Position numbers and translations under genes: made by a program. Of a stretch of 64,000 nt of DNA, positions 6,162-40,014 are shown one piece after another. Within the stretch, counting starts at the first letter, position 1; each line of letters begins with the position of its first letter. Under the pieces are notes generated by a model, which saw nothing but the letters and a program-made list of their open reading frames with translations, was not told where the DNA came from and searched no databases. The DNA lies in assembly GCA_026874595.1 (NCBI GenBank), contig CM049317.1, forward strand, positions 56,020,118-56,084,117, written 5' to 3'. The DNA is from Sipunculus nudus (taxonomy: Eukaryota; Annelida; Sipuncula; Golfingiida; Sipunculidae).

Positions 6162-6314
6162 CTAGTATGCACATAGCTTTATTTCCAACATCACAGTCCT
6201 CGTTAAACCAGGAAAGCCTGGAATCAAGCATCCGTTCTACTGCTAGCAGACATTGGCTTGTAGACGTTACTTCTTCTGCTCTGCCGTCACGCCAAGAATC
6301 CAACAGATCATTTA
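6162..6314 (-). CDS. Gene 1 exon 5: second half of CTLD1
   Basis: 153 nt, phase 1 at both ends. The acceptor is TTTGATTACAG and the donor G|GTCAGT. The translation NDLLDSWRDGRAEE leads to SQCLLAVE, LSWFNEDC and NKAMCIL, the C-terminal half of a CTLD with its three conserved cysteines. A WFNED segment sits at the usual WND position. The matching N-terminal half is not in the preceding exon, which is WSC, but in exon 2, two exons further upstream. It joins exon 6 by a split Asp codon. Confidence 0.85.
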
Positions 6315-7181
6315 CTGTAATCAAAAAGAAGGAAGTTGGATATATTCTAAAAAACAGTTTTATTAACTTAAAGGTGCCTATACAGATATGTGGCGCATAT
6401 TAACCAAAGATAATTCATTGAAACGTTTATAAGAATAGGCCAGAAATGTCAGTCCCACCGCACACAAGTTGGTTATGCCTTTCGTTTACATTCATACTGA
6501 TAAAATAATCCAAACACATTCAGCCATATGGCGGCAAGTCAAACGAATTAGAGTCTTGCAAAGGGCGTTTTCAACTAGTGACCATCAAACTTCCGCACAT
6601 GTGCAACCAACTACCTTCGGTTTTTCAGTATTGCTGTGTTTACCTACAGTCTGTAGATAAACAAGTATCTACATACATCTCGTTGGTCTGATTACACTGG
6701 GACACCACTGTCGTTGGTCTGATTTCTGGCCCGGTGTTATCAGACGAACGAGAGCGGGTGTTGCAGGTTAAAATTTTGGAGCTGGATGCACAAGGCGATA
6801 CCACACTATTATTGGTCTGATTGCACTTCTTTGCTCTGTACCCATCCTGGCGGTGGAACCCAGAAAATTTGGCTACAAAGCAGCGATTACAAGAAAGACT
6901 GCAGTGTATAAGGGCTGCGTGATGAGCGTAGCCTGCAAAGGTCAGTCACTGTTACAAGAGGCAGTTTTGACCCAGAATTTGGGGCATCCGATCTTACGTT
7001 GGATCTCCGGAACCGAGCGTCCAATGAGACTTGAAGTGTCACAGACGCTTACCCCTGCGTTCTTGAAAGTCCTGTTATATATAAATGTATATATATAATT
7101 AAGGGAGTAAATTAACATCAAACAGATCCTTCAGTGATGTTCATTATGCTGCTTTTACATATTTAGAACACATGTACGTAC
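6315..7181 (-). other. Gene 1 intron 4
   Basis: Intron between the WSC second-half exon and the CTLD1 second-half exon, phase 1. It contains a dispersed repeat at 6680-7030 and otherwise AT-rich sequence. Confidence 0.65.
6680..7030. repeat. Interspersed repeat shared with 50460-50920
   Basis: It shares phrases such as ACAAAGCAGCG-TTA, GATGCACAA-GCGATACCA and GTATAAG-GCTGCGT with the 50.5-50.9 kb region, in the same order. Repeated TTGGTCTGAT motifs occur. No coding is visible. It is a diverged dispersed element of unknown class. Confidence 0.55.
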
Positions 7182-7326
7182 CATCTAGAGCGTAAACCGC
7201 GTTGGCCTCATTATTTCCACACTTGTGTTGTATTGGACACCGGTCGCTGGACCTGCAGTTCTGATGAGGTGGGTCACTGGAGCTGCCGAATGAGTTACCA
7301 CAGCAACACTCGAATGTATCAACATC
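7182..7326 (-). CDS. Gene 1 exon 4: second half of WSC domain
   Basis: 145 nt, entering in phase 0 after TTGTCTTTCCAG and leaving in phase 1 at G|GTACGT. The translation DVDTFECCCGNSFG, then NCRSSDRC, HKCGN and ANAVYAL, is the distinctive C-terminal half of a WSC domain (C-x-CGN-x-YG, N/C-x-x-x-C, CGG/CGN, N-x-VY). WSC domains are cysteine-rich putative carbohydrate-binding modules found in cell-wall sensors and polycystin-1. The first half needed to complete it ends in phase 0. Such halves occur only at 37838-38013 (intact) and 30564-30740 (frameshifted). Confidence 0.85.
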
Positions 7327-7594
7327 CTGGAAAGACAATTGTACATTCCTAGAAATATACCAGACGAAAATCATGTGGGCGGTCCTCAATGTGGGATACT
7401 GTGTAACCCATGTTTTAATTCACTCATTGGCCATGGGAGGGAGGTGGGGAGCTGTCGGTTTTGAGGAAGGGCCTGTACTTAAGCTTATGGGGATTTCAGA
7501 TTTTCTGCAGTGCATTTTCTCTTTAATAGACCAACGGTTATATTAATCCTCCGTCAGAGGGAGCACCAGGCGAGAATGAAAGGAAGGGCCTTCG

Positions 7595-10500
7595 TGTAGC
7601 AAGAAGTTCTCTGAATGCTCCGGTAGGGTGAACCCTCTGGCGGTTAAACACAGAGGGGTCCCCGTATAGCTATTCCGCAAATTGCCGGCAATTCAACAAC
7701 TTTATAGTTCCCTGAATCCCCCGGTAGAGTGAGCTCCCGACGGTCATACACAGAGGGGCTCCCATCCAGCAATTCCGCAAATTGCCGGCAATTTGGCAAA
7801 TTTGTAGTTCCCTGAATGCTCCGGCAGGGTGAGCCCCGGGGATAATACAGTGAGGGGCTCCCTATAGCAATTCCGCAAATTGCCGGCAATTTAGCAACTT
7901 TGTAGTTCTTAGAATCCTCCGATAGGGTGAGCCCACTATGGTTATACACAGAGAGGTCCCCATGTAGCAATTCCGCAAATTGCCGGCAATTTACAACTTT
8001 GTAGTTCCCTGAATCCTCCGGTAGGGTGAGCCCCTGACTTTCATACACAGAGGAGCTCCCACCTAGCAATTCCGCAATTGCCGTCAATTTAGCAACTTTG
8101 TATTTCTTAGAATCCTCCGGTAGGGTGAGCCCCCGCCGGTCATACACAGAGGGGACCCCATCTAGCAATTCAGCAAAATGCCGGCAATTAAGCAACTTTG
8201 TAGTTCCCTGAATGCTCCAGTAGGGAGAGCCGCGGGGTTCATACACTGAGGGGCTCCCATCCAGCAAATCCGCAAATTGCCGGCAATTTAGCAACTTTGT
8301 AGTTCTTAGAATCCTCCGGTAGGGTGAGCCCACTACGGTTATACACAGAGGGGTTCCCATCTAGCAATTTTGCAAATTGCTGGCAATTAAGCAACTTTGT
8401 AGTTCTTAGAATCCTCCGGTAGGGTGAGCCAACTACGGCTATACATAGAGGGGTCCCCATGTAGCAATTCCGCAAATTGCCGGCAATTTAGCAACTTTGC
8501 AGTCTTCTGAACCGACCGGTAGATGGAGCCCGGGCGGTTATACACTGGAGGGGGGGGGGGGGGCCTTCTAGAAAATCCGCAAATTGCCAGCAATTTAGCA
8601 ACTTTACATTATTCTGAATCCACCGGTAGAGGGAGCCCCCGGGGGTCATACACGGAGGGGTCCCCACCTAGCATTCCGCAATTTGCCGGCAATTTAGCAG
8701 CTTTGTAGTTCCCTGTATGCTCCGGTAGGTAGAGCCCCGGGGATCATACACTGAGGGGCTCCCATCCAGCAATTCCGCAAATTGCCGGCAATTTAGCAAC
8801 TTTGTAGTTTTCTAAATCCTACAGTAGGGTGAGCCCCCGCCGGTCAAACACAGAGGGGTCCTCATCTAGCAATTTTGCAAATTGCCGGCAATTTAGCAAC
8901 TTTGTAGTTCCCTGAATGCTCCGGTAGAGTGAGCCCCCGCCGGTCAAAAACAGAGGGGTCCCCATCTAGGAATTCCGCAAATTGCCGGCAATTTAGCAAC
9001 TTTGTAGTTCTCTGAATCCTCCGGTAGAGTGAGCCCCCACCGGTCAAACACAGAAGGGTCCCCATCTAGCAATTCCGCAAATTGCCGCCAATTTAGCAAC
9101 TTTGTAGTTCTTAGAATCCTCCGGTAGGGTGAGCCTATTGCGGTAATACACAGAGGGGTCCCCATCTAGCAATTCCGCAAATTGCCGGCAATTTAGCAAG
9201 TTTGTAGTTCCATGAATGCTCCGGTAGGGTGAGCCCCAGGGATCATACACTGAGGGGCTCCCATCCAGCAATTCCGCAAATTGCCGGCAATTTAGCAACT
9301 TTGTAGTTCTCTGAATCCTCCGGTAGAGTGAGCCCCCGCCGGTCAAAAACAGAGGGGTCCCCATCTAGGAATTCCGCAAATTGCCGGCAATTTAGCAACT
9401 TTGTAGTTCCCTGTATGCTCCGGTAGGTAGAGCCCCGGGGATCATACACTGAGGAGCTCCCATCCAGCAATTCCGCAAATTGCCGGCAATTTAGCAACTT
9501 TGTAGTTCTCTAAATCCTACGGTAGGGTGAGCCCCCGCCGGTCAAATACAGAGGGGTCCCAATCTAGCAATTTTGCAAATTGCCGGAAATTTAGCAACTT
9601 TGTAGTTCCCCGAATGTTCCGGTAGGGTGAGCCCCAGGGATCATACACTGAGGGGTCCCCATCTAGCAATTTTGCAAATTGCCGGCAATTTAGCAACTTT
9701 GTAGTTCTCTGAATCCCCCGGTAGAGTGAGCCCCATCTGGTCAAACACAGAGGGGTCCCCATCTAGTAATTTTGCAAATTGCTGGCAATTAAGCAACTTT
9801 GTAGTTCTTAGAATCCTCCGGTAGGGTGAGCCAAATACGGTTATACATAGAGGAGTCCCCATGTAGCAATTCCGCAAATTGCCGGCAATTTAGCAACTTT
9901 GTAGTTCCCTGAATGCTCCGGTAGGGTGAGCCCCGGGGATCATACACTGAGGAGCTCCCATCCAGCAATTCCGCAAATTGCCGGTAATTTAGCAACTTTG
10001 TAGTTCTCTAAATCCTACGGTAGTGTGAGCCCCCGCCGGTCAAACACAGAGGGGTTCCCATCTAGCAATTTTGCAAATTGCCGGCAATTTAGCAACTTTG
10101 TAGTTCCATGAATGTTCTGGTAGGGTGAGCCCCATCTGGTCAAACACAGAGGGGTCCCCATCTAGCAATTTTGCAAATTGCTGGCAATTAAGCAACTTTG
10201 TAGTTCTTAGAATCCTCCGGTAGGGTGAGCCAACTACGGCTATACATAGAGGGGTCCCCATGTAGCAATTCTGCAAATTGCCGGCAATTTAGCAACTTTG
10301 TAGTTCCCTGAATGTTCCGGTAGGGTGAGCCCCAGGGATCATACACTGAGGGGTCCCCATCTAGCAATTTTGCAAATTGCCGGCAATTTAGCAACTTTGT
10401 AGTTTCCTGAATGCTCCGGTAGGGTGAGCCCCGGGGATCATACACTGAGGTGATCCCATCCAGCAAATCCGCAAATTGCCGGCAATTTATCAACTTTGTA

Positions 10501-11205
10501 GTTCTCTGAATCCCCCGGTATAGTGAGCCCCATCTGGTCAAACACAGAGGGGTCCCCATCTAGCAATTTTGCAAATTGCTGGCAATTAAGCAACTTTGTA
10601 GTTCTTAGAATCCTCTGGTAGGGTGAGCCAACTACGGCTATACATAGAGGGGTCCCCATGTAGCAATTCCGCAAATTGCCGGCAATTTAGCAACTTTGCA
10701 GTCTTCTGAATCGACCGGTAGATGGAGCCCGGGCGGTTATACACTGAGGGGGGGGGGGGGGCCCTTCTAGAAAATCCGCAAATTGCCAGCAATTTAGCAA
10801 CTTTACATTTTTCTGAATCCACCGGTAGAGGGAGCCCCCGGGGGTCATACACAGAGGGGTCCCCACCTAGCATTCCGCAATTTGCCGGCAATTTAGCAAC
10901 TTTGGAGTTCTTTGAATCCTCCGGTAGAGGGAGCCCGGGCGGTCATACACTAAGAGGACCCCTTCTAGCAATTCCGCAAATTGCCGGCAATTAAGCAACT
11001 TTGGAGTTCTTTGAATCCTCCGGTAGAGGGAGCCCGGGCGGTCATACACTGAGGGGACCCCTTCTACCAATTCTGCAAATTGCCGGCAATTTAGCAACTT
11101 TGCAGTTTTCTGAATCCACTGGTAGAGGGAGCCCGGGCGGCCATACACTGAGGGGCCCTCTTCTAGCAATTCCACAATTTGCCGGCAATTAAGCAACCCT
11201 GGTCT
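7595..11205. repeat. ~100-bp satellite array with palindromic core, about 36 units
   Basis: Tandem units of about 99-100 bp. Each contains AAATTGCCGGCAATTT, a 16-base perfect palindrome, followed by AGCAACTTTGTAGTT, then CCGGTAGGGTGAGCCCC, and CATACACAGAGGGGTCCCCAT. Units differ by substitutions, and subtypes alternate (for example CTGAATGCTCC and TTAGAATCCTCC variants). Two units carry expanded G runs (about 8549-8562 and 10748-10761). Near-99-bp periodicity leaves long minus-strand frames of 33-residue repeats, which look like by-products. The same family is inverted at 28127-29470. Confidence 0.93.
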
Positions 11206-14200
11206 GCCTGATTAAATACTTATACGCTGATGCCCAATTGACTGTATACTTGCTTTGGAGCACAAGTCCACTGCCTGTAAGTAGTGTAACCCCCATTGTA
11301 CATGGCCTGTGAAAGTTGTGATGTCGTGAAAAACGTAAAAATCATCATTAAGCCAATTCCTATAAGGATACAAGGCTTACAGGGGTTGATGAGTTTATTA
11401 CTATACCAATATTATTGTTCTATTGTTTGTGTATGGACTTTTTTGTCAGGTTCCCCAGAGTATAAAACCATTTAATAATTTTTTTCTCCTTTTTTGGGGG
11501 TTAGTTTTTTCTGTTTTTCTTTCTTCTGTCATGTTTGTGCTATATCTCACATATGGCTGATTTAAAAAAACAACCTTCTTGCGTAATATTAGTCTGAGGT
11601 GACAGAGTTGCACCTGATATTTACTTTGGACCTTGACCTGATATCCATGGTCATACACTCCATAGCTGATTCAAAATTATCGCTCAGTTGGGCGGGACGC
11701 CAGTGATCCTAAGACTGATAAGAAACATCTAGTTTTTCTTTATTTACGGACATGTAAACCACCATACTTAAAATATTTTGGGAAGATATGATTTTATAAA
11801 ATAAAGAACGGAACAGGCTCTATAAAAACAAAAGTTCATGACTCCAGATTAATTTTTCAAAAGGTTTTATTCTCACAAAATAAAAACATGATGTACGTTT
11901 AACTGAAACATCTTTATCAATTGATGCTGTATATGATTGCTAAAGTTTGGAATCTCACTCACAAATTGACCATTAATCTTTCATAAAACTGTCCAAAGAT
12001 ACTACCTGCTTGGACAGATCATTCCAACCAATCTGGCACCATATCTTAAGATATCCAAAATTAACGTGTGCAACAAATAATAAGATAATCCATGAAATAA
12101 CCATGGAGAAATCGTATGAATATTTACTTGAAATAGACCATGAGAAGGGAAATTTCACATCTGATAGTCTTTTTTATAAGCATTATTTTTCCTAATTTTG
12201 TTAAATCTTTGAATGATGACCAGAAAATGGGTATGCCGGATGAATTTTGTTTTCATAGTAAGACAAATAACTGAGTTATAAATATCAGTTGAATGTTAAA
12301 TGGGAATTTCTACTTAAATTGAAAAGTACTCACTACAAGAAATATTAAATATGTGTGGCTTATATACAAAAGATAAATTTATCTAAGATGGATAAGCATA
12401 GCAAATTTCAAAGCAATGTATGGATTAATTATTGCAAAATGGAATTCCTCATGAACTTCAAATGATAAGATCATTGTAAAACTTGGGTAAATTTTGTTCA
12501 AATGTATGATTAACAACAGGAATGTATGAGTACATGATATTTATTATTTTCAATTTATGACCCTTTAATCAATTTTAATGCAGCAGGGATTATGATTCAG
12601 ATGAGTCTGGCTGTCAAGGTTTTTACAGTCACATATAGCTCATAGAATATAGGTTATTATGACTTAATTTGGGGTTTCCTACATGATTCACCAGGACTTG
12701 TTTGGAAGCATGATCTCCCTCAAGAAACATCTTGTACTGTGACCTAGTGTTTGATGTTGCCATATTTCTTTGCTTAACTTTCTTCAGCTGAAAGAAACAG
12801 ATTATCATTACTTCTTCATAAATATAGAGACTTTCCCACAAACACAACTGGTAAGGGATTTTGTGAGGGAAATACTGTACATTTATTTTATAGTTATAAT
12901 TGAAAAGGTGTTCCCATCTGCAAAAGTATGGCCATCAATCCATATAGGAAAGAAATGTTCCAAAAGGGCGCCCTGAACCTGCGAGTCTTTTCTGTAGCAC
13001 TTAAAGGAAATATTTACAAGCAGAATATATTTTGTGTATTTTTCTGTTTAATATATATTTTGCTATACAGTTGTAAACACATTCACTGGAAGACTAGTCT
13101 ATAGGACAAAAGTGTGGACTAACAAAACCATGTCTTCATAATAAATTTTTACAGGAAGGCATTAATCGTTATATGTTGAGCCCTTTACTTTTCTGACAGC
13201 ATTTCCAACTTAACACAAGTCCAAAAATATTTAACAGCAGTGTGTTTAACATGTTTTTCATAGTCTGATGTTATAGTCCAGCTTTTAATCAGCAGTATAC
13301 CCTAATATGTTTTGATAATATCAATGTCACATATGACTTAACGGCTATATGTGCGTCATTTCCTCATTTGTATGATTTATTCACATTTTGAGGCAAAGCT
13401 AAGGCCATACACTAATTATATCAATGAACTATGGCTATAATACAATACCAGTTAATATGATCATGTCAGTACATTTGGCACAATTTCAAACAGTTTTAAG
13501 CCCAATTTATAGAGCGGGGGGTGGGATGAAGAATCTATGAGAAAAACTGAGAAAGGATTTTTATATATTTTATGCAAACTTCAGTGGGAAGTACAAGGGG
13601 GTTACACTTGAATGAAAATTTGGAAAAGAATATTTTTCCAAGGTTTTATATGCATAAATTTAGGGGTGAGAGTATCGGATTTCCCAAATTTGTTAGATAA
13701 TACCCACCCCTACTCGTATAGGCCTAAGTAGCAGTAATGGTGTTACCACTTGCTAGTCTACGGATGGAATGACGACCGACAAAGACCATATGTACCTAAA
13801 ATGACTAAGAGTCATCTGAGCTGAAAATGAAAGGTGAAGCACCAAAACAGTGAAAATCGTGGAAATGTGCATTTGTGATGAAGACGGGAAAAACAGTTAT
13901 TAAAAAAAATATGAACACAGTGAGGGAGTTTAGATATTTGCCAGGCACAGTGTGACTCTAGGATGTAAAGGAAAAGTATAGGATCAATGGCTCTTCCTAA
14001 TTATTTAGCTGAAGTTAAATTGGGCGAGGCCGTTTTGGGTAAGGTAGTTTTACATAGGGAACAAGGAGGCCCAAAGGATTAATAATTACCAGTCAAATGA
14101 TGCCTTGCTGTGATAGTGAAATGGAAGTTGGAAAATGAATCATATTCGTTGGATGGAAGCCTCATACTCAGCCGTACAAAAGCCATCAACTATATCGATC

Positions 14201-14340
14201 GAATAAAATAACATTTTATTCACTTTATATTCAAATATTATTTATTCATTTGATTCAGACAGGGAGTTAATATGTGCACATGATTGCCCTACTGGGCACC
14301 CTTTGCTTAATGTGGTACATGTATATACCCTAATCCTTGT
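11206..14340. other. AT-rich intron sequence between satellites
   Basis: No exon, transposon end or tandem repeat was recognised on either strand. Short open frames at 12010-12195, 12629-12847 and 12770-12976 have no domain or splice support. A short segment near 11590-11650 (ACCTTGACCTGATATCC) resembles dispersed molluscan repeats. Confidence 0.5.
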
Positions 14341-17300
14341 GCATGAAATACACCAGTGAGTGTTTACTTCAGTAAGTGTTTGTCACTATTAATATACGCA
14401 ATATCCGGGATACGAGTTACCATAACCCTTCTAACGCGAAATACACCAGTATGTGTTTACACTAGTAAGTGTTTATAACTATTAATATATGGCATATCCT
14501 GGATATAACTATTAATATATGCTAAATCCGTATCCAGAGCAAGTGTTAGTCACTATTAATATATGCTATATCCGGGATACGGGTTACCCTAAGCATTCGG
14601 ACATGAGATCCTCCGGTAGGTCTTTGTTACTATTAATATATGCTGAATGCGGGATACGGGTTACACTAACCCTTCGGACATGGAATACTCCAGTAAGTGT
14701 TTGTCACTATTAATATATGCTTTATCCGGGGTAGGGGTTACCTTAACCCTTCGAGCATGAAATACACCAGTAAGTGTTTACTCTAGTAAGTGTTTGTCAC
14801 TTTTAATATATGGTATATACTGGATACGGGTTACCCTTACCCTTCGGGCATGAAATGCCCCATTATGTGTCTGTCCCTATCCGGAGCAAGTGTTAATCTC
14901 TATTAATATATGTTATATCCGGGATACGGGTTACCCTAACCCTTAGGGCGTGAAATACTCCATTAAGTGTTAGTTACTATTAGTAATATGCTATATCAGG
15001 AATACAAGTTACCCTGACACTGTGTACATGAAATACTCCAGTAAGTGTTTGTCACTCTTAATATATGCTATTTCTGGGATACAGGTTACCCTAACCCTTC
15101 GGGCATGAAATATTCCAATAAGTGTTTGTCACATTTAATATATGCTATATCCGGGATACGGGTTAGCCTTACCCTTCGGGAATGAAATACACCAGTAAGT
15201 GTTTGTAACTATTAGTATTTGCTATATCCGGTGTACGAGTTACCCTAACACTTCGAGCATGAAATACTCCATTATGTGTTAGTCACTATTAGTAATATGC
15301 TATATCCGGGTTACGAGTTACCCTGACACTTTGTACATGAAATACTCCAGTTAGTGTTTGTCACTATTAATATATGCTATATCCGGGATACGGGTTACCC
15401 TAACCCATAGGGCATGAAATACTCCATTAAGTGTTAGTCCCTATTAGTAATATGCTATATCAGGGATACGAGTTACCGTGACACATTATACATGAAATAC
15501 TCCAGTAAATGTTTGTCACTATTAATATATGCTATTTCCGGGATACGGGTTACCCTAACCCTTCGGGCATGAAATATTCCAAAAAGTTTTTGTCACATTT
15601 AATATATGCTATATCCGGGATACGGGTTAGCCTAACCCTTCGGGAATGAAATACTCCAGCAAGTGTTAGTCACTATTAGTAATATGCTATATCAGGGATA
15701 CGAATTACCCTGACACTTTGTACATGAAATACTCCAGTAAGTGTTTGTCACTATTAATATATGCTATTTCCGGGATACGGGTTACCCTACCCCTTCGGGC
15801 ATGAAATATTCCAATAAGTTTTTGTCACATTTAATATATGTTATATCCGGGATACGGGTTAGCCTTACCCTTCGGGAATGAAATACTCCAGTAAGTGTTT
15901 GTCACTATTAGTATTTGCTATATCCGGTATACGAGTTACCCTAACACTTCGAGCATGAAATACTCCAGTAAGTGTTTGAATACCTTCGGGCATGAAATAC
16001 TCCAGTAAGTGTTTGTCACTATTGATATATGCTATATCCGGGATACGGGTTCCCCTAACCCTTAGGGCATGAAATACTCCAATAAGTGTTTGTCACTATT
16101 AATATATGCTATATCCGGGATACGGGTTACACTAAGCGTTCGGACATGAGATACTCCAGTAAGTCTTTGTTACTTTTAATATCTGGTGAATGCGGGATAC
16201 GGGTTACCCTAACCCTTTGGACATGGAATACTTCAGTAAGGGTTTGTCACTATTAATATATGCTTTATCCGGGATACGGGTTACCTTAACCTCCGAGCAT
16301 GAAATACACCAGTAAGTGTTTACTCTAGTAAGTGTTTGTCACTTTTAATATATGATATGTCCTGGATACGGATTATCATAACCCTTCGGGCATGAAATGC
16401 CCCATTATGTGTTTGTAACTATTAATATATGCTATATCCCTATCCTGAGCAAGTGTTAATATCTATTTATATATGTTAAATCCGGGATACGGGTTACCAT
16501 AACCCTTAGGGCATGAATTACTCTATTGTGTGTTAGTCACTATGAGCAAAATGCTATATCCGGGATACGAGTTACCCTGACAATGTGTACATGAAATACT
16601 CCAGTAAGTGTTTGTCACTATTAATATATGCTATTTCCGGGATACGGGTTACCCTTACCTTTCGGGCATAAAATATTCCAAAAAGTGTTTGTCACATTTA
16701 ATATATGCTGTATCCGGGATGCGGGTTAGCCTTACCCTTCGGGAATGAAATATTCCAGTAAGTATTCCAGTAAGTGTTTGTGACGATTAATTTATGCTAT
16801 ATCCGGGTTACGGGTTACCCTAACCCTTCGAGCATGAAATACTCCAGTAAGTATTTGTCACAATAAATATATGGTATATCCCTGATACCGTTTACCCTAA
16901 CCCTTCGAGCATGAAATACACCAGTAAGTGTTTACTCCAGTAAGTGTTTGTCACTATTTATATATTCTATTTCCGGGATATGAGTTACCCTAACCCTTTG
17001 AGCGCGAAATACACCAGTAATTGTTTAGTCCAGTAAGTGTTTATCACTATTAATATATGGCATATCCTGGATAGGGGTGACCCTAAGTCATCGGAAATGA
17101 AATTCTCCTGTTTTTGTAACTATTAATATATTCTAAATCCGTATCCGGAGCAAGTGTTAGTCACTATTAATATATGCTACATCCGAGTTACGGGTTACCC
17201 TAAGGATTCGGACATGAGATACTCCGGTAAGTCTTTGTTACTATTAATATATGCTGAATGAGGGATACGGGTTACCCTAACCCTTCGGACATGAAATACT

Positions 17301-23334: not shown

Positions 23335-23338
23335 TCAG

Positions 23339-27234: not shown

Positions 27235-27350
27235 GCATTTTTAATTCAGCTAACTATAAGTCATCTGAGCGATAGTGGTGGTCCATTGTCCGTCTTCTGT
27301 CCGTCCGTCCGTTCGTCCGTTCGTCCGTCCGTCGTCCCGTCTGTCAAAAT
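27235..27350. repeat. Dispersed repeat end with (GTCC)n
   Basis: AGCTAACTATAAGTCATCTGAGCGATAGTGGTGGTCC is followed by imperfect GTCCGTCC/GTTCGTCC repeats. It is a diverged copy of the end module seen at 5829-5912 and 24565-24660. Confidence 0.55.
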
Positions 27351-29470: not shown

Positions 29471-29579
29471 GGCAAACTTCAAATGGAAGAAACCAACGGT
29501 TCCCCACCTATATGCCATATTCCCAGGTTCATTTGCGCATAGCCCCCCCCCCCCCCCTCCCCCCAAAAAAAGTGTTTTA

Positions 29580-29790
29580 GATTCACGTATTTCAATGTTC
29601 AGTAATCCGTATGTGGCTTCACATTTGTGAATATTCTTGTAAGTCCTTCCTGGGTCCGGATCATTAGCCGGCCCACGCCAAAATCTAATCGATATTTCAT
29701 TGGCAAATTGGCCCATCTTTTGTACAAACACACAAACAAACACAGAAACGGGGATGAAAGCATATCCTCCTGACTGAGGCAAATATCATT
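29580..29790. repeat. Dispersed repeat R1, copy at start of duplication unit A
   Basis: On the minus strand it contains words such as GGCCAATTTGCCAATGAAAT, CGATTAGATTTTGGCGTGG and GATCCGGACCCAGGAAGGA. Related copies lie at 32810-33075, 37195-37400, 39745-39990 and 59555-59760. The encoded phrase DFGVGPA in several frames is incidental to the repeat. Confidence 0.7.
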
Positions 29791-30029
29791 TATCATTAAT
29801 CAGGCCACAGCGTGTCTTTCTAATAAACTCTGGGAAAACCAGCCTTGATTAACCCTACTGTTTAGATTATTTTTGATTTCGCAGAAATGCTGACACTCGT
29901 AAAATTTACATTTGGGTGACATAACGCTCACCATTTTGTTCTATATTGTCATATCTGTACCAACTTTGCAACTGTTTTACAGCGAGTATATGTTTTGGGA
30001 TATGGAGAATTCTCAATACTTACTCCAAA

Positions 30030-30362
30030 GAAAATAAAAAGTATGGTTCTCAGGCACCGCCCGCGTCAATATTAAACCCCCGCATCAAAAATATTTATTT
30101 TGATTTTCACTAGAGACTTACAACTTTGAGCTCCAGCCACTCTGACATTTCTTTCAAGAAGATAAAATCATACAATTTTGACAATATTTCCTTTGTTATG
30201 TAGTGTTTTTACTTGTTTAGCAAAAAAAAAAATGTTATTGTCATGCTTTTCCCTTACCATTTGACATTTTTATCGTAACTAACAAAAAATTTAAAATAAA
30301 AAAAACCGCCTGCCCACATTGATTTCTGAAAAAAAGTGCCTGAGAACCAAAACTAATTTTTT
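30030..30362. mobile_element. MITE copy, same family as 4571-4870
   Basis: Begins AAAGTATGGTTCTCAGGCACCG, CCCGCGTCAAT and ends GTGCCTGAGAACCAAAACT, the inverted terminal word. The interior shares TTTGTTATGTAGTG, TTGTTTAGCAAAAAA and CATGCTTTTCCC with the 4.6-kb copy. It lies inside duplication unit A but lacks an obvious counterpart in unit B, so it may have inserted after the duplication or been lost. Confidence 0.65.
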
Positions 30363-30563
30363 GTTTGACATCAATAAATGTGCATTTTCTTACCTCAGAA
30401 AATGTGAATAAACAAGGGTATTCTTGTTGTCAATATCAGTAGTCCTGAGTGGACCTGTGTCCAAAAACAGGTTTAATAATATTGAATCGTGTGTTCAAGG
30501 CTTATTCTCTATATATATTAAAAAATACCATAAAATACCATAAATTGTGATAATATTCCATAC

Positions 30564-30740
30564 CATTTCATTCATGGCCATGTAGGAGAAGTCTCGCATA
30601 CTGCAGTGCTGCCTACAATCTGAAGCGTCTTTCATATCCAGATTAAAATGTTCGGCAGGCTTCTTCCATTTCGGGCTGGTTCTGACCCTGTGGTACTTTG
30701 TAACAACCCTGATGGTAAACGGCCACGGGCGAATGGTCGG
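30564..30740 (-). pseudogene. Copy A of gene 1 exon 3 (WSC first half), frameshifted
   Basis: Nearly identical to the intact exon at 37838-38013 with the same acceptor and donor, but one extra T in the coding strand (AACATTTTAATC instead of AACATTTAATC) makes the exon 177 nt instead of 176. The frame runs into TAA directly after RTF. It encodes the GCYKVPQ start of a WSC domain before the break. Unless the extra base is a sequencing error, this exon cannot contribute a complete WSC domain. Confidence 0.85.
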
Positions 30741-31262
30741 CTGTCAAATTAGGGTTTATTAAAGTTAAGATGAATGGTTAATTCAACCTCGCCTTTACTT
30801 AATCAAAACATGTTGTGTGTTAAATTTGAGGATAGCGTGTGCAATACTTCCGACTTTATGTTGCTCACAAATTCCGCATTTTGGCCATTTTGACATTTAA
30901 GATCAGGTCATGATCATAAGTGTTTGAACCCGTCTAATATTTTGGTAGAAACGGTTTGTGTTTCAAATTTTGCTGATTTAACCATTGAATGATAAATTCT
31001 AAATTTTTATTAATAATATATTATTTAAATTAACCACATGAAAAATATGATATTAAAAAGCTGAAATCAATCTGCGAAAAAACGAAATTATCCCCAAAAT
31101 ATTAATTATAGTTTTAATTATAATTCTACTGACTCGTACACTCAAAACCTAGGAAACATTACATGCAAACATAAGATATACAATGACTCACCCTAATTTG
31201 AACAATACAGAAGAAGATATTACAAGATCTTTATGTTAAACCATAAGGTAGCAACTAATTTG

Positions 31263-31852
31263 AAGGGGTAGTCTGAAACCGTGTGGGCCAATCTGAAATC
31301 GACTTCAAGTTCCTCCCGTGAACAACCTGAAATCAAATCCAAGTTACTGCGAGTTATTTGAAATCGACTTCATGTTACTGGTGGTAATCTGAAATCGACT
31401 TCAAGTTTAACTCGTGGCCAATATGAAATCGACTCCAAGTTACTGCGGATAATTTGAAATCGACTTCAAGTTACTGGAGGTAACCTGAAATCGACTTCAT
31501 GTTACTGGAGGTAATCTGAAATCGACTTCAAGTTACTGAAGGTAATTTGAAATCGACTTCAAGTTACTCCCGTGGGCATCTGAAATCAACTGCAAGTTAC
31601 TCCCGTGGGCATCTGAAATCGACTTCGAGGTACTGCGAGTAATCTAAAATCGACTTCAAGTTACTGGTGGTAATCTGAAATCGACTTCAAGTTACTGAAG
31701 GTAATTTGAAATCGACTTCAAGTTACTCCCGTGGGCATCTGAAATCAACTGCAAGTTACTCCCGTGGGCATCTGAAATCGACTTCGAGGTACTGCGAGTA
31801 ATCTAAAATCGACTTTAAGTTACTGTGGGTAATCTGAAATCGCTAACCCAGC
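31263..31852. repeat. ~29-bp minisatellite, about 20 units (copy A)
   Basis: Unit approximately GGTAATCTGAAATCGACTTC, AAGTTACTG, with CCCGTGGGCATCTGAAATC variants. A block of about 158 bp inside the array is itself repeated (31536 on and 31694 on). The counterpart at 38545-38800 has only about nine units. Confidence 0.9.
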
Positions 31853-31989
31853 ACCAAGCTCCAGTCTTATCGCTTATGTTAAAATGGTTTGGAAAGCACT
31901 TGTGTGCATCTTGCGTATCTCCATTCTAAATTGAAACTTAAATTCAGACATGTAAATCTAGAGACTTAAGTTTAGACACATAAATTTAC

Positions 31990-32190
31990 CGTTGATCCAG
32001 TTCCAGTAAAGCGGAGCTGTGCGACCTCCGAGCCAAGCGTTCGGAGTTAAAGTATCCCTCAGTAGTTGTTGTATGGCGCGGTGGGTGGCTGTGTCATTGT
32101 CCACCGCCAATTGACCAAATCTGTTCTCACACTGCCGTCTGGCGCCTTCCCATCCAATAAGAGAATCATATAAACAGTACTCCCGGGAAA
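31990..32190 (-). CDS. Copy A of gene 1 exon 2: first half of CTLD1
   Basis: 201 nt, phase 1 at both ends, open throughout. The acceptor is TTTGCTCTTTGCAG and the donor G|GTAAAT. The translation SREYCLYDSLIGWEGARRQC, then GQLAVDND, NAWLGG and LYWNWIN, is the N-terminal half of a CTLD. It differs from copy B at a few residues (for example LYDSLI against IYGSPI and QCENR against QCEDR). An upstream in-frame ATG at 32270-32272 with a hydrophobic run (FLLFLL) would allow this exon to begin a transcript as its own signal-peptide exon. It is intact, but its downstream partner at 30564-30740 is broken. Confidence 0.75.
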
Positions 32191-32431
32191 CTGCAAAGAG
32201 CAAACGGCCATTACCTAACAAAAATAGCAGAAAACTGACTTTGTTACATATAGCACGCAATGATTTAGACATTGGGCATAGGTGTAGAATGAACTTGGCA
32301 GAGGCGTGTATATTTCAGTTTGAAATAGCGTCTTTAAATTGTTGTCTATATTTTATTATTCAAGGTCACATTTTAGCAGTGTCATTGCCTATACTTTTGT
32401 TGTAAGGGTTTCCGGGAAGACATTATAGGTA

Positions 32432-32665
32432 CAAAAGCATGTCGCTTTACATGTTCGATATATCCAATTTAATATAGGTCCGAGTCGGAGAAACCGATTT
32501 TCACATTGTCGAGGTAAACACAAACTATGAAAAATTAAGACACACAAACAAAACTCTCGCTTTACATGTTCGATATATCCAATTTAATATAGGTTCGAGG
32601 CAGAGAAAGCAATTTTAACATTGTCGAGGTAAACACAAAACAATGAAAAATTAACTCACACAAAC
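32432..32665. repeat. Tandem duplication, 2 x ~121 bp (copy A)
   Basis: CGCTTTACATGTTCGATATA, TCCAATTTAATATAGGT through ACACACAAACAAAACT is present twice in a row. The same pair is found at 39370-39605, so it predates the segmental duplication. Confidence 0.85.
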
Positions 32666-32809
32666 AAAACTTGGACTTAGATAAACCCTCTGATGCAAAG
32701 GGAATATAGTATATGTATTCACAAAAAATCCTCACAGCAAACTTCCGTATATATCTTAACTTGAAATTTGCAATTCTAATAAATGCAAGCATCTGCCCTT
32801 AACTTATTC

Positions 32810-33075
32810 GGCCCATATTCCCAGGTACATTCCTGCATAAGTGACTGTAGATTCGTGAATATTCATTGACGACGTTCATGGACCCGGATTATGTGCCGGA
32901 CCTACACCAAAGTCTAATCGATTGTCTCCTAAGTCTTCATTGTCCCATTCCCGTAATACAATGAGAAATTTCATGAGATTCCACTCATGATTGTGTGATG
33001 TATGTTGTGAAGAAACACACGAACGTAAATGAATGTATACCCTCCAGGCGGAGACATAAGAGTTATAAAGCCAGC
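32810..33075. repeat. Dispersed repeat R1 copy
   Basis: On the minus strand it contains GAGTGGAATCTCATGAAATT, GGGAATGGGACAATGAAGAC, CGATTAGACTTTGGTGTAGG and GGCACATAATCCGGGTCCA. It is closest to the copies at 39745-39990 and 59555-59760. Confidence 0.7.
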
Positions 33076-34622
33076 ATGGCATACTAACGCGCAATAAACT
33101 GGATACCCATACGAGCAAAGGTACAAACGATATTATCAACAGTGTATGCAGAAAATCTTACCCTTGAAAACAGAAGCACAGAGTATTTTCTGCTAAGACT
33201 TCGACAAAGAAAAATAAAAGAGAATAAATATATCGTAAACGAGGAACCTGTAATGGGGTTCAAGAACCAAGTACCGGTCCTATAGTAAGGTGATCATGCT
33301 GCCACTGGGACACCCATGCGTTTGTAAGAAAACGTCCTGTAATGCATAGTACCGATACAAATCATATGAATATCCGTGAATATTGAGTTAACAAAATCGA
33401 AAAGAAAATTAAAATTAATTTTAAAAACCTTTTGTCATCAGGCCAGAAGAGGCTGGATTTGTGACATGGATTTATGATACGAGATTTTTTTGAACTAGTG
33501 CAAAGAAAAACTAAAACCACGCGTGATTTAGTAAACGGGATTTGAGAACTCTCTGTATTCAGTGCTGATTTAAAAGAGTACTGCTAATTCAGTAGAGTAT
33601 AACAATTTCAGTGTTGGTATTTCATTCAATTTTTAAAGTAATTAACGAATTTAATACACCAAGAGAGACGCTCCTCATGTGAAAATACTGCGTATTTTAA
33701 CTATTGAAAAATATATATGGACGTTTTTTTCAAATAAGAAGACAGAATATTAATATGTTTAAGATGACAGAATATTTTTAAGTTTAATACAAGAAGAGAA
33801 AGAGTAAAATATCTTTCTCTTAATTATAGACAAGTACTTGAGCATGTTGTATAAGTCTAATATATTGTTAACCATATTATACCATACCTTATAAATAAGA
33901 TTGCAGGTTATGATATTATATTATTATCATTATCATTAAATTAATAAACGTCTATACAATTAAGGTCACAACTGTGAATAGTCGGCTTCAGCGACGAAAT
34001 GTCTCATGACCTGTATGACGGGTCGACTGTCTCGTCGCCTCCCATACATTTTGAGTTAAGTGGTGTTTGGACACGATACGATCGTATTTCTGGAAAAGTG
34101 AGTTGTGTTTTCAGTTCTGTTGACATTGTGGCATTAAAACATTTGCAGAATTTTATAAATATCTTATGTGTAACATAACCGCAACATAGGAAGTGCGTTT
34201 TACTTCAGTTATTAAGTGTTTTAGTTCATCAAGATATGGCCCATACTATGCACAGCCACCATTACAAAAGCAGTGAGAACGTATTTATAGCCACGTGTCT
34301 TATTGTACTATACCTGCAATAATAAGGCATTATGTGTATTTAAACTAAGAATATATATGCGTATTAGCTTATCACATCTGAATTGTGTTTAAATAAACTA
34401 AGACACCCGAGGTTATTATGGATTTTCATTTTTTTACAGTTCCATGTCTTGAGAGCATATAATATAATCCCACCCAAATGCATAAATGTGGGTCGGTGAC
34501 TAAAATGTACCTTCAGATATATCTAACAGTTAGTGGCTGAACTGTGAACAGTGTTTTACAATATATTCTTCATTACATTTCAATTTAAGAATGCATGGCT
34601 TTAATAAATAAAAAGAGCTTAC
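33076..34622. other. Intron-like sequence between copy A exons 2 and 1
   Basis: AT-rich and almost base for base the same as 40015-41565. No exon was recognised. Confidence 0.55.
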
Positions 34623-34719
34623 CTGAGTAAACCTTTGTGCATTCTAGCTCTTCCTGACATATACTGGTCCCCGGCAGTGTGATCAAGGTGAACAGAACAT
34701 AATATACAAAACGTCTCAT
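34623..34719 (-). CDS. Copy A of gene 1 exon 1: signal peptide
   Basis: 97 nt from ATG to donor G|GTAAGC. MRRFVYYVLFTLITLPGTSI is a typical signal peptide, followed by CQ and then EELECTKVYS, leaving a phase-1 end that fits the exon 2 acceptors. An in-frame ATG lies 60 nt upstream, but the two duplication copies differ there by compensating indels that change the frame in between, so that stretch behaves as 5' UTR. Confidence 0.75.
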
Positions 34720-35204
34720 GTTTCTTTTAACTCCTCTTAGTATTGCAATAGGTAGAAATAAAAAGAAAAATCTTCTCATAAAAGAAAACCCTAATTTGTT
34801 TTGAACACCTATATTATAATATCAGGTAACACGTCAAATCATATAAAGTATATGAACTATTGGCTCGGTTCAGTTGCGAGAATATGTTGCTATCGCAAAA
34901 AATATACATGACAACTATACGTTTAACCGTCACCGATGAAGTGCGCCTATTTTGTGTTATTATGGCACGAGTGTAACCTTGATATTTAGACTGTTATCAA
35001 TATCCAATCAAGGATCTTATCGACAATGTTACAACTGATAATCGAAGACTGACCGGTGTGAAAGTCTGGTTATTGATCGAACAGTGCATCTACATCGTGA
35101 AGGTCAGTATTGTCTGGTCAAGGCTAATGAATAAATATAAACAAATAAGTCACGTTTATATGATATCAGTTTGAACAGCCATTGATGTAGTCTAGTCTAC
35201 AACA

Positions 35205-35332
35205 TCCGAGTCCGTGTGCAAGTCCGAGGTTAGGTCACGCGAGTCCAAGTCCGAGTCCAAGAGAGTCGAGTCCAAGTCCACCTTCTGCGTGTCCAAGTCA
35301 TCTGGAACCCGCGTCCAAGTCCTTGTCGGAGT
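35205..35332. repeat. GTCCAAGTCCGAG minisatellite (copy A, degenerate)
   Basis: Imperfect GAGTCCAAGTCC words. The counterpart in copy B (42140-42295) has regular 27-bp units. Confidence 0.75.
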
Positions 35333-35365
35333 CCAATACAAATATCCTTTTTAAAAGAAACTGTA

Positions 35366-35440
35366 AGGCCAAAAAAATAAAAGGTATGGTTCTCAGGCAC
35401 CGCCCGCGTCAATTTTAACTCCCCGTATAAAAAAAATTAT
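35366..35440. mobile_element. MITE terminus, copy A
   Basis: TAAGGCCAAAAAAATAAAAG, GTATGGTTCTCAGGCACCGC and CCGCGTCAATTTTAAC match one end of the 4571-4870 family. The opposite end is not seen, so it is truncated or decayed. Confidence 0.6.
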
Positions 35441-35589
35441 TTTGATTTTAATCTTTCAAATAGATAATATAATACAATTTTGATAAGATTTGCTTTGTTC
35501 TGTAGTGCATTTACCTGTTTAGCAAAAGAAATCTGTTTTTTTCATGCTTTTTCCTGATCAAGTCAAACAAAAACCATTGAAAATCAGCT

Positions 35590-35840
35590 AATTTCTTTGA
35601 CATTCCTGAAGATTTTAGTCCTTTTGACTGATAATCAGCAGAAACAATTTTAGTAAAAAAAATTGATAATTCAAAGATATGATTTTATACTGACAGCACG
35701 GGAACCGAACGCTCTCTGTGGAGCCAGGAGACCTGAAGCCTCTGGTCTTGGACTGAGAAAAATGTATCGCCACCTGTTGGCCAAATTGGTTACTAACATT
35801 TGCCTATACAGCAAACCTGATATGAGTGAGGATAGAAATA
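35590..35840. repeat. Dispersed repeat R2, copy A
   Basis: Contains TTTCTTTGACATTCCTGAAG, GATTTTATACTGACAGCACG, CTGAAGCCTCTGGTCTTGGA and CGCCACCTGTTGGCCAAATT. Copies lie at 42590-42830 and, more diverged, 59850-60130. Confidence 0.7.
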
Positions 35841-36559
35841 AATGTCAAATTTCCCTACACTGTTCATTGTGGTTGCCTTTTTTGTTCCCGAGGGTCTCAT
35901 ATTCACAATATTCACGAAAAGGGGAATTATCGCGAAAATAAAACCCTCCTGAATAACAGGTCCCATCGTCGCTGGCAAGTTGAAAGGTAAAAACAGATTA
36001 ATATTAAGAATAATTTAGATATTGTATGTTCAAATATTGCTATTATAAATTATTATTATCTTTCAAATTATCTTTTATTAACAATAACTCAAGTCGGTCG
36101 ATGTTCGCTTGCGTCCCCGTGGGATTGTTAAGATTTTTCTAACGTATATTTTTAAATATAATTAATTAATATAATAACGGTTATACAATCTGTGTATGTA
36201 TTTTTATAGAGAGATCGCGAAAATGGAACCCTCGCGAACAGATAATTGAAATTCTCGAAATTTTATCCCTGCGAATATGAAGTAAACATCAGTATACATG
36301 TCTTATTATTTTATGCTAGTTTTCACTTAAAACAACCAAAATATTCAAGAATGTCAAAGAAATTATTTGATTTTTAGTGGTTTTCTGTGAAGAGTCCGAT
36401 CCTCCAAAACTGGTCAGGTGCATGCGAGTCCGACAAATACGTTGCCTCGTCCTCGACGCTTTTAAGATCGTGTGTGTGTGTGCGTTTGTGCGTGCGTGGG
36501 TGTGTCATTGACATAGTTCATTCTCTGACAGCTACAAGAAACGATCATATACAGTCGGT

Positions 36560-36910
36560 CCTGCTTAATTGTATATCGTATATTTGTATATCCGTTTAAT
36601 TGTATAAGGTTACGAAAACCAGAACCTTTTCCAATGTTTTCTTAATAAAATTCACCGTTTTCATGTATATATGATAAATGTATATATCGGTTAATTGTAT
36701 AGTATACTCCGTCAATCATGCACGACAATCCCGGATATTCATGTGCGACAATGATCTCAATTAAGGATGTATTGAAACCTGTGGAACTCCCCAAAAGTGG
36801 TTTTAATTCAGAGGTGGTCTTATAAGACAGGTGAGTTATAACCAATGTGAATGCGATCGGTTCAATCAAGGGAGGTCTTAATAAACTGGTGGTCTTATTG
36901 ACAGATTGTC
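36560..36910. repeat. Possible Tigger/pogo-like non-autonomous element, copy A
   Basis: Begins ACAGTCGGTCCTGCTTAATT and continues with repeated TTAATTGTATA words, then GTGGTCTTATAAGAC and GTGGTCTTATTGACAG. The wording and CAGT start are reminiscent of pogo-like elements, but clean inverted ends were not established. The copy B counterpart is at 43550-43925. Confidence 0.3.
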
Positions 36911-37194
36911 TTCCAGATAAATTCGACGGTATGTTTTATTGTGATCAAGACATACAAAGAGTTCAATATGTGTGGAAACAAAATATAAAATGGTTTAAGA
37001 GGGCCAACCCTTATGTAAACTTGTAATTCAGAATAATATTTGAAAACCTGCCGATATTAATAAGATCATTCTTTAATTGTTTATATATTAAACATACGAT
37101 TTATTTCTCATCTCGAAGTCTCAAAAGAATTATAGGCATATAATGTAATCCCCAAATCCCCCCACCCCCCTAAAAAGTGTTTTAGATTCACTTA

Positions 37195-37400
37195 TTCGGT
37201 CTATATTTCAATGTTCAGTCAACCGTATGTGACTTCACATTTGTGAATATTCTTGTAAGTCCTTCCTGGGTCCGGATCATTAGCCGGACCCACACCAAAA
37301 TCCAATCGATATTTCAATTGGCCCATCGTGAGTATAAACACACAAACAAACACACAGATACGGGAATGAGCGGATACCCTCCTAACGAAGGGAAATATCA
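37195..37400. repeat. Dispersed repeat R1, copy at start of duplication unit B
   Basis: Counterpart of 29580-29790, with a short deletion and a few substitutions relative to it. Confidence 0.7.
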
Positions 37401-37469
37401 TTTATAGGTTAATACAATACATATTTATACATTTACAATATTCCTCTGATATTAATGATTGAGAAAAAC

Positions 37470-37496
37470 AGAGAGAGAGAGAGAGAGAGACAGAGA
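37470..37496. repeat. (GA)n microsatellite
   Basis: A GA run within duplication unit B. No equivalent run is present in unit A near 29.85 kb. Confidence 0.85.
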
Positions 37497-37837
37497 TAAT
37501 AAGAGAGGGACAAAGTAATAAAGATTTATCTTTGAAAAGTCGACATTAATATATCTCTCACTATGTTCTTGTGTAATGTCACATCACGTCCCCATTTATT
37601 CGGTTTGTATGAGCATTATTCAAGTAAGGAGAATTTCCAAGAGTAAATAAATGTGATTTTTTTTTACCTCAGAGAATGTGAGAAAACGAGGGTATTCTTG
37701 TTGTCAATAATAGTACTCCTGAGCGGACCTGTGTTCGAAAAGAAAGGGTTTAATACTACTGGGTCTTGTGTTCACGTCTTGTTCTCTATATTTAAAATTA
37801 CCATAACATACTATAAATTGTCATAACTTATCCATAC

Positions 37838-38013
37838 CATTTCGTTCATGGCCATGAATGAAAAGTCTCGCATAGTGCAGTGCTGCCTACAATCCGAAGC
37901 GTCTTTTATGTAAAGATTAAATGTTCGGCAGGCTTCTTCCATTTCTGGCTGGTTCTGACCCTGTGGTACTTTGTAACAACCCTGATAGTAAACGGCCACG
38001 GGCGAATGGTCGG
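37838..38013 (-). CDS. Gene 1 exon 3: first half of WSC domain (intact copy B)
   Basis: 176 nt, entering phase 1 after AATTTGACAG and leaving phase 0 at ATG|GTATGG. The translation YYQGCYKVPQ, then EEACRTFNLYIKDASDCRQH and FSFMAMNEM, is the N-terminal half of a WSC domain (GCY start, C-x3-C pair, aromatic strand). It joins in phase 0 to 7182-7326, giving FMAMNEM-DVDTFECCCGN, the normal WSC register. It starts with a split Ala codon shared with exon 2. No other exon in the window begins in phase 0, so this is the only partner. Confidence 0.85.
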
Positions 38014-38219
38014 CTGTCAAATTAAGGATTTATTAAAGTTAAGTTGAATGGTTAATATGTTGTGTGTTAAATATGATGACAACATATGCAAATCTTCCGA
38101 CTTCCGGCTCACAAATTCCATATTTTGTCCGATTTGACATATAAGATCAGGTCAAGGTGAGCAGTGTTTGAACCCGTCTGAGATTTTGGTACAAACGGAA
38201 TGTGTGTCAAATTTATTCG

Positions 38220-38243
38220 GGGGGGGGGGAAGGGGGGGGGGGG
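38220..38243. repeat. G-tract pair
   Basis: Two G runs separated by AA. They are absent from the equivalent place in copy A near 30970. Confidence 0.9.
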
Positions 38244-38544
38244 AATTGTTGATTTACCATTGAATGATAAATTCTTAATTTTTACTCATAATATTTTATT
38301 TAAATTAACCACATGGAAAATATGAGATTAAACAGCTGAAATAAATCTATGAAAAAACGACATTATCACAAAAAATGTTAATTATAGTGTTAATTATAAT
38401 TCTACTGATTCTTACACTCAAAAACCCAGGAAACATAACATGCAAACATAAGATATACAAGGACTCGTCCTATTTTGAGCAAAACAGAAAAAGAATTTAA
38501 AAGATCTTTAGGTGATAAACATAAGGTAGCAAATGATTTGTTGG

Positions 38545-38800
38545 GGTAGTCTGAAACCGTATGGGTTAATCTGAAATCGACTTCAAGTTACTCCTGTGCT
38601 CAATCTGAAATCGACTCCAAATTACTACGAGTTATCTGAAATCGACTTCAAATTACTGTGGGTAATCTGATATCGACTTCAAGTTACCTTGGTCAATCTG
38701 AAATCGACTCCAAGTCTGCGAGTAATCTGAAATCGACACAAGTTACTGGAGGTGATCTGAAATCGACTTCAAGTTATCGGGGGTAATCTGAAATCGCTAC
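38545..38800. repeat. ~29-bp minisatellite, about nine units (copy B)
   Basis: Same unit as 31263-31852 but less than half as long. It shows repeat contraction or expansion after the duplication. Confidence 0.9.
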
Positions 38801-38931
38801 CCCAGTACCCATGCAGCTCCAGTCTTATGGTTTGGAAAGCACTTGTGTGTATTTTGCATATCTCCATTCTAAATTGAACTTCAATTTAGACACGTAAATC
38901 TAGATACTTAAGTTTAGACACTTTAATTTAC

Positions 38932-39132
38932 CGTTGATCCAGTTCCAGTAAAGCGGAGCTGTGCGACCTCCGAGCCAAGCGTTCGGAGTTAAAGTATCCC
39001 TCAGTAGTTGTTGTATAGCGCGGTGTGTGGCTGTGTCATTGTCCACCGCCAGTTGACCAAATCTGTCCTCACACTGCCGTCTGGCGCCTTCCCATCCAAT
39101 AGGAGAACCATATATACAGTACTCCCGGGAAA
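38932..39132 (-). CDS. Gene 1 exon 2: first half of CTLD1 (copy B)
   Basis: 201 nt, phase 1 at both ends. The acceptor is TTTGCTCTTTGCAG and the donor G|GTAAAT. It encodes SREYC, GWEGARRQCEDRFGQLAVD, NAWLGGRTAPLYWNWIN: the first CTLD cysteine, helix 1 with W-x2-AR-x2-C, the GQLA motif, the WIGL-like WLGG and the W-x-W strand. The domain stops exactly where exon 5 (6162-6314) could continue it. In genomic order the two WSC exons come in between. An upstream in-frame ATG at 39203-39205 followed by FLLFLLGLLFAV offers a second possible signal-peptide start that reads through the acceptor. Confidence 0.85.
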
Positions 39133-39990: not shown

Positions 39991-40014
39991 GGAGACATAA
40001 GAGTTATACAGCCA

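Follow-up and report, generated by a model that had tools for sequence, protein, structure and literature searches.

A WSC domain encoded within a C-type lectin-like domain in a putative receptor gene family of Sipunculus nudus

The WSC exon pair and its host domain

Can one complete extracellular domain be housed at the base of a loop of another? The question is raised by a gene of the annelid Sipunculus nudus that lies on the minus strand of a 64,000-nucleotide stretch of contig CM049317.1 (assembly GCA_026874595.1, forward-strand positions 56,020,118 to 56,084,117), referred to here as the window. The initial annotation of this DNA had noticed the two exons of a WSC domain lying between the exons for the two halves of a C-type lectin-like domain (CTLD). 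In the order of the gene, exon 2 (38932-39132, 201 nucleotides (nt), phases 1-1) encodes the N-terminal half of this first domain, CTLD1; exon 3 (37838-38013, 176 nt, phases 1-0) and exon 4 (7182-7326, 145 nt, phases 0-1) encode the N- and C-terminal halves of the WSC domain; and exon 5 (6162-6314, 153 nt, phases 1-1) returns to CTLD1 with its long loop and last strands. Exons 1 to 3 exist in two copies and the coordinates given are those of the upstream set (2B and 3B). Exons 2 and 5 can be joined in phase 1 with the WSC pair between them, and AG/GT borders and phases agree with the pair being, as first described, phase 1 outside, phase 0 inside and frame-neutral. We consider it highly probable that the gene encodes a type I membrane receptor, predicted from its sequence to consist of a signal peptide, CTLD1 with the WSC domain at the base of its long loop, a second CTLD (CTLD2), a threonine-rich stalk and a transmembrane segment.

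The assignment of exons 2 and 5 to the two halves of one CTLD was borne out by profile comparison. Joined directly, they match the Pfam family Lectin_C from profile position 4 to 105 of 107 with a score of 36.3 bits, against a cut-off of 22.6 (E 1e-8), and with the WSC exons left between them the score falls to 27.5 bits, the match then covering positions 4-84 and running on into the insert. An alignment with L-selectin (3e-6) crosses the exon 2/5 joint, which lies directly after the W-x-W strand, a position that we take to be the start of the CTLD long loop. Six cysteines were counted by eye in the joined sequence, three of them in exon 5 and three in exons 1 and 2 downstream of the signal peptide; we assume that they pair as in other CTLDs. 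The initial annotation had raised the possibility of a hidden CTLD C-half between exons 2 and 3; this was looked for, and a six-frame motif scan of the window found no such motif there, placing the WSC N-half at one place (two overlapping rows) and the WSC C-half at one.

Exons 3 and 4 had been read as one complete WSC domain, a claim that stands as regards completeness, since the joined exons match the Pfam WSC family from end to end (positions 1-81 of 82, E 5.5e-4). The score of 20.5 bits is below the Pfam cut-off of 27.8, however, and in this respect the identification falls short. Taken singly, the N-half matches at E 0.051 and the C-half gives no match; nine shuffles of the joined sequence with cysteine positions fixed matched no family at E<=1. 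Eight cysteines at WSC spacing, with small spacing differences, and two further cysteines were recognised by eye, and the domain aligns with Kremen-1 and with yeast Wsc1 (7pz2), the Wsc1 match being weak (E 0.39). The CGG motif of the last WSC loop is absent, its place being taken by CGN in the window and, among the paralogous loci described below, by CGN in L036, CGT in L030 and L031, CGE in L039 and CNN in L038, with no motif in L032 and L033. By strict motif the domain would therefore be called WSC-like; we name it WSC from its profile match and cysteine pattern.

The remaining exons of the model are likewise on the minus strand and bordered by AG and GT. The coding part of exon 1B (41566-41662) supplies the signal peptide and first CTLD1 cysteine (MRRFVYYVLFTLITLPETIICQEELECTKVYT) and ends in a phase-1 donor. 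Exons 6 (4285-4545) and 7 (3317-3475), both of phases 1-1, encode the halves of CTLD2; exon 8 (2171-3055, 885 nt) encodes a threonine-rich, mucin-like stalk, and exon 9 (1145-1271, with a provisional 3' end) the transmembrane segment (LAGGLAVIIIVIIIAVII), which, like the signal peptide, was assigned by eye. The model is open and stop-free in translation through this segment, and its junctions are of phase 1 throughout up to the transmembrane exon, the sole exception being the phase-0 junction within the WSC domain. CTLD2 matched no Pfam family and its best matches in the PDB are CTLD proteins (E 0.04). It is cut at the same place and in the same phase as CTLD1, the donor of exon 6 being at the site of that of exon 2, but without an insert. 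Given this homologous phase-1 intron in the second domain, the host intron is probably older than the WSC insert.

Ca-dependent sugar-binding C-type lectins carry EPN or QPD and WND motifs. By eye, exon 5 contains neither EPN nor QPD, and has WFN instead of WND. Since these canonical motifs are absent, the ligand of CTLD1 need not be a classically bound sugar, and we would not class the domain as a sugar-binding C-type lectin.

Recurrence of the layout in paralogous loci

A genome search with the WSC domain returned 14 places outside the window, 11 of which (L030-L040) were read over 10 kb each, C13:33015282, C1:86701677 and C8:25899834 being left unread. By tblastn, CTLD1-N, WSC-N and CTLD2-N follow one another in order on one strand in nine of the 11 loci, with WSC-C also in order in eight of those nine; the WSC-C match is short in L032 and L037. 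When the open frames were read, each locus except L035 yielded one CTLD1 C-half, ten in all. Hidden Markov models (HMMs) of the four half-domains, built from the window and hand-picked frames of L030-L040, then placed N, WSC-N, WSC-C and C in order in the window, L030-L033 and L036-L039, so that the nested order is complete in nine of the 12 loci found by WSC, counting the window (L035 was outside the scan); for these loci the scan reports on order and extra copies rather than on presence. In no HMM-scanned locus holding both N and WSC-N was a C-half found between them. The nested order first noted in the window is thus repeated in distant paralogues, as are most of the phases, with identities to the window of 30-42% for N, 27-40% for WSC-N, 29-43% for WSC-C and 13-22% for the long-loop half.

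Five further short loci (L041-L045) were picked by the CTLD1 N-half query alone, to avoid selecting on WSC, and these are independent of the building of the HMMs. WSC-N was present in three of the five (E below 1e-4). All four parts were found in L043, making the nested order complete by HMM in one of the five, and L041 has N, WSC-N and WSC-C by HMM, with a C-half seen by eye. Inspection by eye also suggested late exons in L040 and L044. For comparison, 11 loci from flanking sequence (L009-L019) showed no match at E<=0.5 to the HMMs for N, WSC-N or WSC-C and a single weak one to that for C (L015, 0.022). Among eight loci with a Pfam WSC domain (L001-L008), the WSC-C HMM matched L007 and L005 at about 1e-7, L004 at 3e-4, L008 at 0.0016 and L002 at 0.06; the WSC-N HMM was weak (L006 0.069, L003 0.09, L004 0.42) and the N HMM matched L007 at 0.011. 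This last is a CTLD N-half-like match downstream of a WSC gene (L007, 1531-1656 and 2427-2564), which may perhaps be a gene of the side-by-side WSC-CTLD kind. The WSC exons of L001, L003 and L008 look polycystin-like by eye and stand apart from the nested family.

Splice sites in the paralogues were picked by site score, ignoring phase. N is of phases 1-1 in all nine loci scored (L037 had no scored site and L034 has no N), WSC-N is 1-0 in 10 of 11 and WSC-C is 0-1 in eight of nine; some of the picked sites overrun the homologous end, that of N in L031 for example, so single borders are uncertain. Two cysteines, one before the helix in WSC-N and the other the middle one of CCC in WSC-C, are both present in the window, L032, L033, L037, L038 and L039 and both absent from L030, L031 and L036, co-varying in nine of nine members; L041 and L043, which were outside the alignments, hold both by eye. 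That the two are gained or lost together is evidence that both halves of the WSC domain belong to a single protein, and the pair may form a fifth disulfide spanning the exon 3/4 joint. Like the exon order, the phases and the paralogues, this co-variation is a direct observation. L032 and L033 are without the region of the last WSC cysteine pair.

The family profile A5, for the WSC domain, retrieved Kremen-1 and nothing else from 177,635 PDB sequences (four of four matches at E<=10, best 1.3e-4), whilst profile A6, for the joined CTLD1 halves, matches CTLD proteins, including E-selectin (1.2e-7) and PLA2R, for which the best single domain gives 6.5e-9 and the whole-chain value of 3.2e-23 is a sum over several domains. 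The Pfam cut-offs were passed by two of six paralogous WSC joins (L030 28.4, L031 29.0) and, for Lectin_C, by L031, L038 and L039 of the four CTLD1 joins, L040 (21.7) just failing. Between L030 and L031 the ratio of nonsynonymous to synonymous divergence (dN/dS) is about 0.08 in N, 0.13 in WSC-C, 0.47 in WSC-N and 0.64 in C.

The family may be large. The CTLD1 query gave at least 120 matches in the genome at E<=10, and at least 85 CTLD1-N matches at E<=1e-3 (two of them the window's own exons), distributed as 59 on C12, nine on C13, seven on C7, five on C15, two on C6 and one each on C9, C1 and C2. Clusters are seen at 25.32-25.95 Mb (22) and 33.11-34.05 Mb (14) of C12, 32.73-33.02 Mb (nine) of C13 and 36.28-36.56 Mb (seven) of C7, and several matches in dense clusters hold stops.

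A number of observations weigh against the nested reading. The strict automatic scan for CTLD1-C, which requires phase-1 borders, was convincing in one of ten paralogues (L038), two L031 rows being false, and the C-half frames used in building the HMMs were themselves chosen by eye. C-halves are of phases 1-1 in only seven of 11 cases, with L030, L032, L034 and L037 deviating. L034 is without N and WSC-C, the WSC-C of L040 was not found by HMM and L035 holds a WSC C-half only. Among the loci picked by N-half, L042 (4.2 kb) has N and WSC-N but neither WSC-C nor C, and L044 (4.2 kb) and L045 (4.0 kb) have only N. Four of the six paralogous WSC joins fall under the Pfam cut-off, one with no match at all, just as the window's own domain does. 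The association of the two cysteines (Fisher p 0.012) is uncorrected for kinship, L030 and L031 being close relatives. Most of the 85 or more CTLD1-N loci are unread, and an N match alone is no sign of a following WSC. The second copy of exon 3 in the window is out of frame, as described below. Even so, the recurrence described above makes the nested layout look like a property of a gene family rather than of one gene, and like an arrangement that has endured rather than a single chance event.

Duplications within the locus

The 5' part of the gene is duplicated in tandem, both copies lying on the minus strand. Unit B (37158-44158) comprises 5' flank and exons 1B-3B, and unit A (29552-37156), head-to-tail with it, comprises 5' flank and exons 1A (signal-peptide exon, 34623-34719), 2A (CTLD1 N-half, 31990-32190, open, its protein 94% identical) and 3A (WSC N-half, 30564-30740, its frame shifted by a 1-nt indel, one extra base in a T run). 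The repeat pairs window positions 30373-37156 with 37646-44158, and a further match of 82.8% pairs 29552-29793 with 37158-37405, so that the units abut; each carries exons 1-3 and about 2.4 kb of upstream flank, with CTLD1-N before WSC-N in both. Substitution between the units (29552-44158) is very uneven, with 150-base bins ranging between 0 and about 17%, which fits gene conversion; less probably, the doubling may be an artefact of assembly. A 31-base minisatellite occupies intron 2 of both units (31290-31842, 17.4 copies, in unit A; 38567-38796, 7.4 copies, in unit B).

The copies of exon 3 differ at 12 of 176 aligned sites (6.8%) compared with 95 of 687 (13.8%) in the flanks (p 0.010). Eight of the 12 changes are at third positions (p 0.019), and dN is 0.037 against a dS of 0.264, computed without the indel-bearing codon. 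We conclude from these figures that at least one copy of exon 3 has gone on encoding protein since the units were duplicated. The copies of exon 2 (dN 0.027, dS 0.069) and exon 1 (dN 0.042, dS 0) give no clear signal.

The intron between exons 3A and 4 is filled for the most part by a block of 22 kb (7436-29515, with no strand assigned), which is bounded by the edge of unit A and by a point about 110 bases upstream of exon 4 and has a near-identical copy outside the gene, at window coordinates -30425 to -8466. The copies share 98.1% identity over 21.8 kb (99.5 and 99.7% over the L010 and L009 pieces). They have different flanks, with inverted arrays of a 100-base satellite near their ends (L009, L010, L012, L013), and inspection by eye revealed no clear target-site duplication; the block looks mobile or segmentally copied. 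Without it the intron would measure about 1.2 kb, a length comparable with the about 0.8-1.6 kb of neighbouring introns. Duplication of the 3' half of the gene was considered and rejected: the outside copy ends short of exon 4, exons 4-7 are absent from it, and these exons are single in the 174 kb compared, a search that covered exons 4-7, with exons 8 and 9 outside it. A repeat at 22.1-22.5 kb was dropped as a candidate cysteine-rich exon, its frames being broken.

A neighbouring gene upstream (47813-51233, minus strand) also encodes a CTLD, with its N-half at 51.2-51.0 kb and C-half at 49.35-49.16 kb (joined, 54.5 bits to Lectin_C), and then ends in a PAN exon with a stop (PAN_1, 1.8e-8); it may contain a GC-AG intron. 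PAN domains have the same fold as WSC domains; one fold family is thus found beside a CTLD in this neighbour and inside a CTLD in the gene next door.

Competing explanations, known relatives and meaning

We infer that the WSC pair is included in transcripts, that is, that splicing into mRNA follows the nested path. A two-exon WSC module, of phases 1-0 and 0-1 and hence 1-1 overall, would have entered the phase-1 intron common to CTLD1 and CTLD2, and arrival by exon shuffling is what would be expected of such a module in such an intron. The polypeptide would exit the CTLD core at the end of the W-x-W strand, form the WSC domain and come back to complete the long loop and last strands. The WSC fold has been described as a five-strand antiparallel sheet of order 1-5-3-4-2 (PMC9024836); given that strands 1 and 5 adjoin, entry and exit of the chain would be at one side, suiting insertion at a loop base. 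The WSC domain would then sit beside the ligand face of the CTLD and the two would bind ligand jointly, the likely outcome being a stalked composite head on the cell surface. WSC domains elsewhere bind glucan or proteins (PMC9024836). The family would have spread by tandem duplication, and its long-loop half is the most variable, which fits a diversifying recognition family. A bolder proposal, which we regard as possible whilst leaning slightly against it, is that most of the clustered family, with its 85 or more CTLD1-N matches, carries a WSC domain threaded through the first CTLD long loop, that this composite head has diversified in the manner of an immune or gamete-recognition repertoire, and that the tandem 5' duplication adds a start that gives only a head without WSC.

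Several other uses of the same exons need to be weighed. The 5' duplication, which together with the family-wide layout extends the initial annotation, multiplies the splice paths: of 80 paths to exon 6, 16 are in frame, one of them nested (1B-2B-3B-4-5-6) and three giving a plain CTLD1, in keeping with the earlier claim that skipping the cassette leaves a plain CTLD in frame. The WSC pair may therefore be optional, with plain and nested forms of CTLD1 both produced and each form perhaps tied to one of the two 5' ends. About 2.4 kb of 5' flank is repeated in unit A, and a start at exons 1A-2A could give the plain form only, since exon 3A is out of frame (four in-frame paths begin at exon 1A, none with WSC), the upstream start giving the nested form. 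Against this, distant paralogues keep the pair, which would be unexpected if it were dispensable, and the indel in the T run of exon 3A may be an assembly error; on balance, we think an optional cassette unlikely. In a further scheme, the halves of CTLD1 and the WSC domain would belong to alternative isoforms and never meet, exons 2 and 5 giving a plain CTLD1 and exons 3 and 4 a WSC domain in its place (1-3-4-6). The path 1B-3B-4-6 is indeed in frame, but coordinated skipping would be needed in every paralogue and there would be no reason for the interleaved order to persist, making this scheme very improbable.

It might also be argued that the locus is decayed or misassembled and that its exons are leftovers in chance order, and the region is certainly a messy one, with tandem units, a near-identical 22-kb block and a frameshift. 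The coding constraint in the exon 3 copies speaks otherwise, and other chromosomes carry the exons in this order again, with mostly the same phases; the paralogues largely refute this explanation, to which we give hardly any credence, and a chance order of exons is rejected, as the paralogues repeat it.

Both domains are held by human PKD1 (PMC1934368), and among the sea urchin proteins given in the same source, its SpREJ relatives, CTLD and WSC occur in different members. In the polycystin-1/SpREJ proteins the domains are separate and accompanied by PKD repeats, REJ, GPS and PLAT and by 1-11 transmembrane segments, whereas in the window gene the WSC domain is inside the CTLD. No PKD repeat, REJ, GPS or PLAT was found in the window gene by Pfam, the joined exons 1-7 giving only Lectin_C (best stretch positions 4-82 of 107), with no WSC reported, and the exon 8 frame nothing. 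Membership of the polycystin-1 family is rejected, the chain modelled in exons 1-9 reaching its transmembrane segment without any of these domains. WSC is one of the additional domains of bivalve-specific CTLD proteins in a study that also reports large lectin expansions, and no nesting is described in its available text (PMC10140915). Kremen-1 and yeast Wsc1 belong to the same domain family as the window WSC by sequence and cysteine spacing, the WSC cysteine pairs being given in PMC9024836; according to that source, their WSC domain forms a module of its own and not an insert in another domain. The window family differs from them also in its optional extra cysteine pair and in having CGN, CGT, CGE or no motif in place of CGG. 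Mannose-receptor-type and selectin CTLDs are matched by the profile of joined CTLD1 halves, and we know of none with a domain inserted at the long loop. No WSC domain inside a CTLD was found among the literature matches listed, in a search without most subscription papers, and the nesting is likely to be new.

CTLDs tolerate sequence change in the long loop. The fold and ligand binding of the composite head, and with them its role in recognition, we infer from the arrangement of the gene, and on this basis a second domain kept at the loop base across distant paralogues would show that the base of this loop can house a complete domain. It would also be a natural case in which exon shuffling had targeted an intron lying within a domain. 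Other genomes may hide the same layout, since domain tools undercall such proteins, as Pfam does on exons 1-7 of this gene. In Sipunculus nudus, the arrangement would offer a scaffold for two-site recognition.

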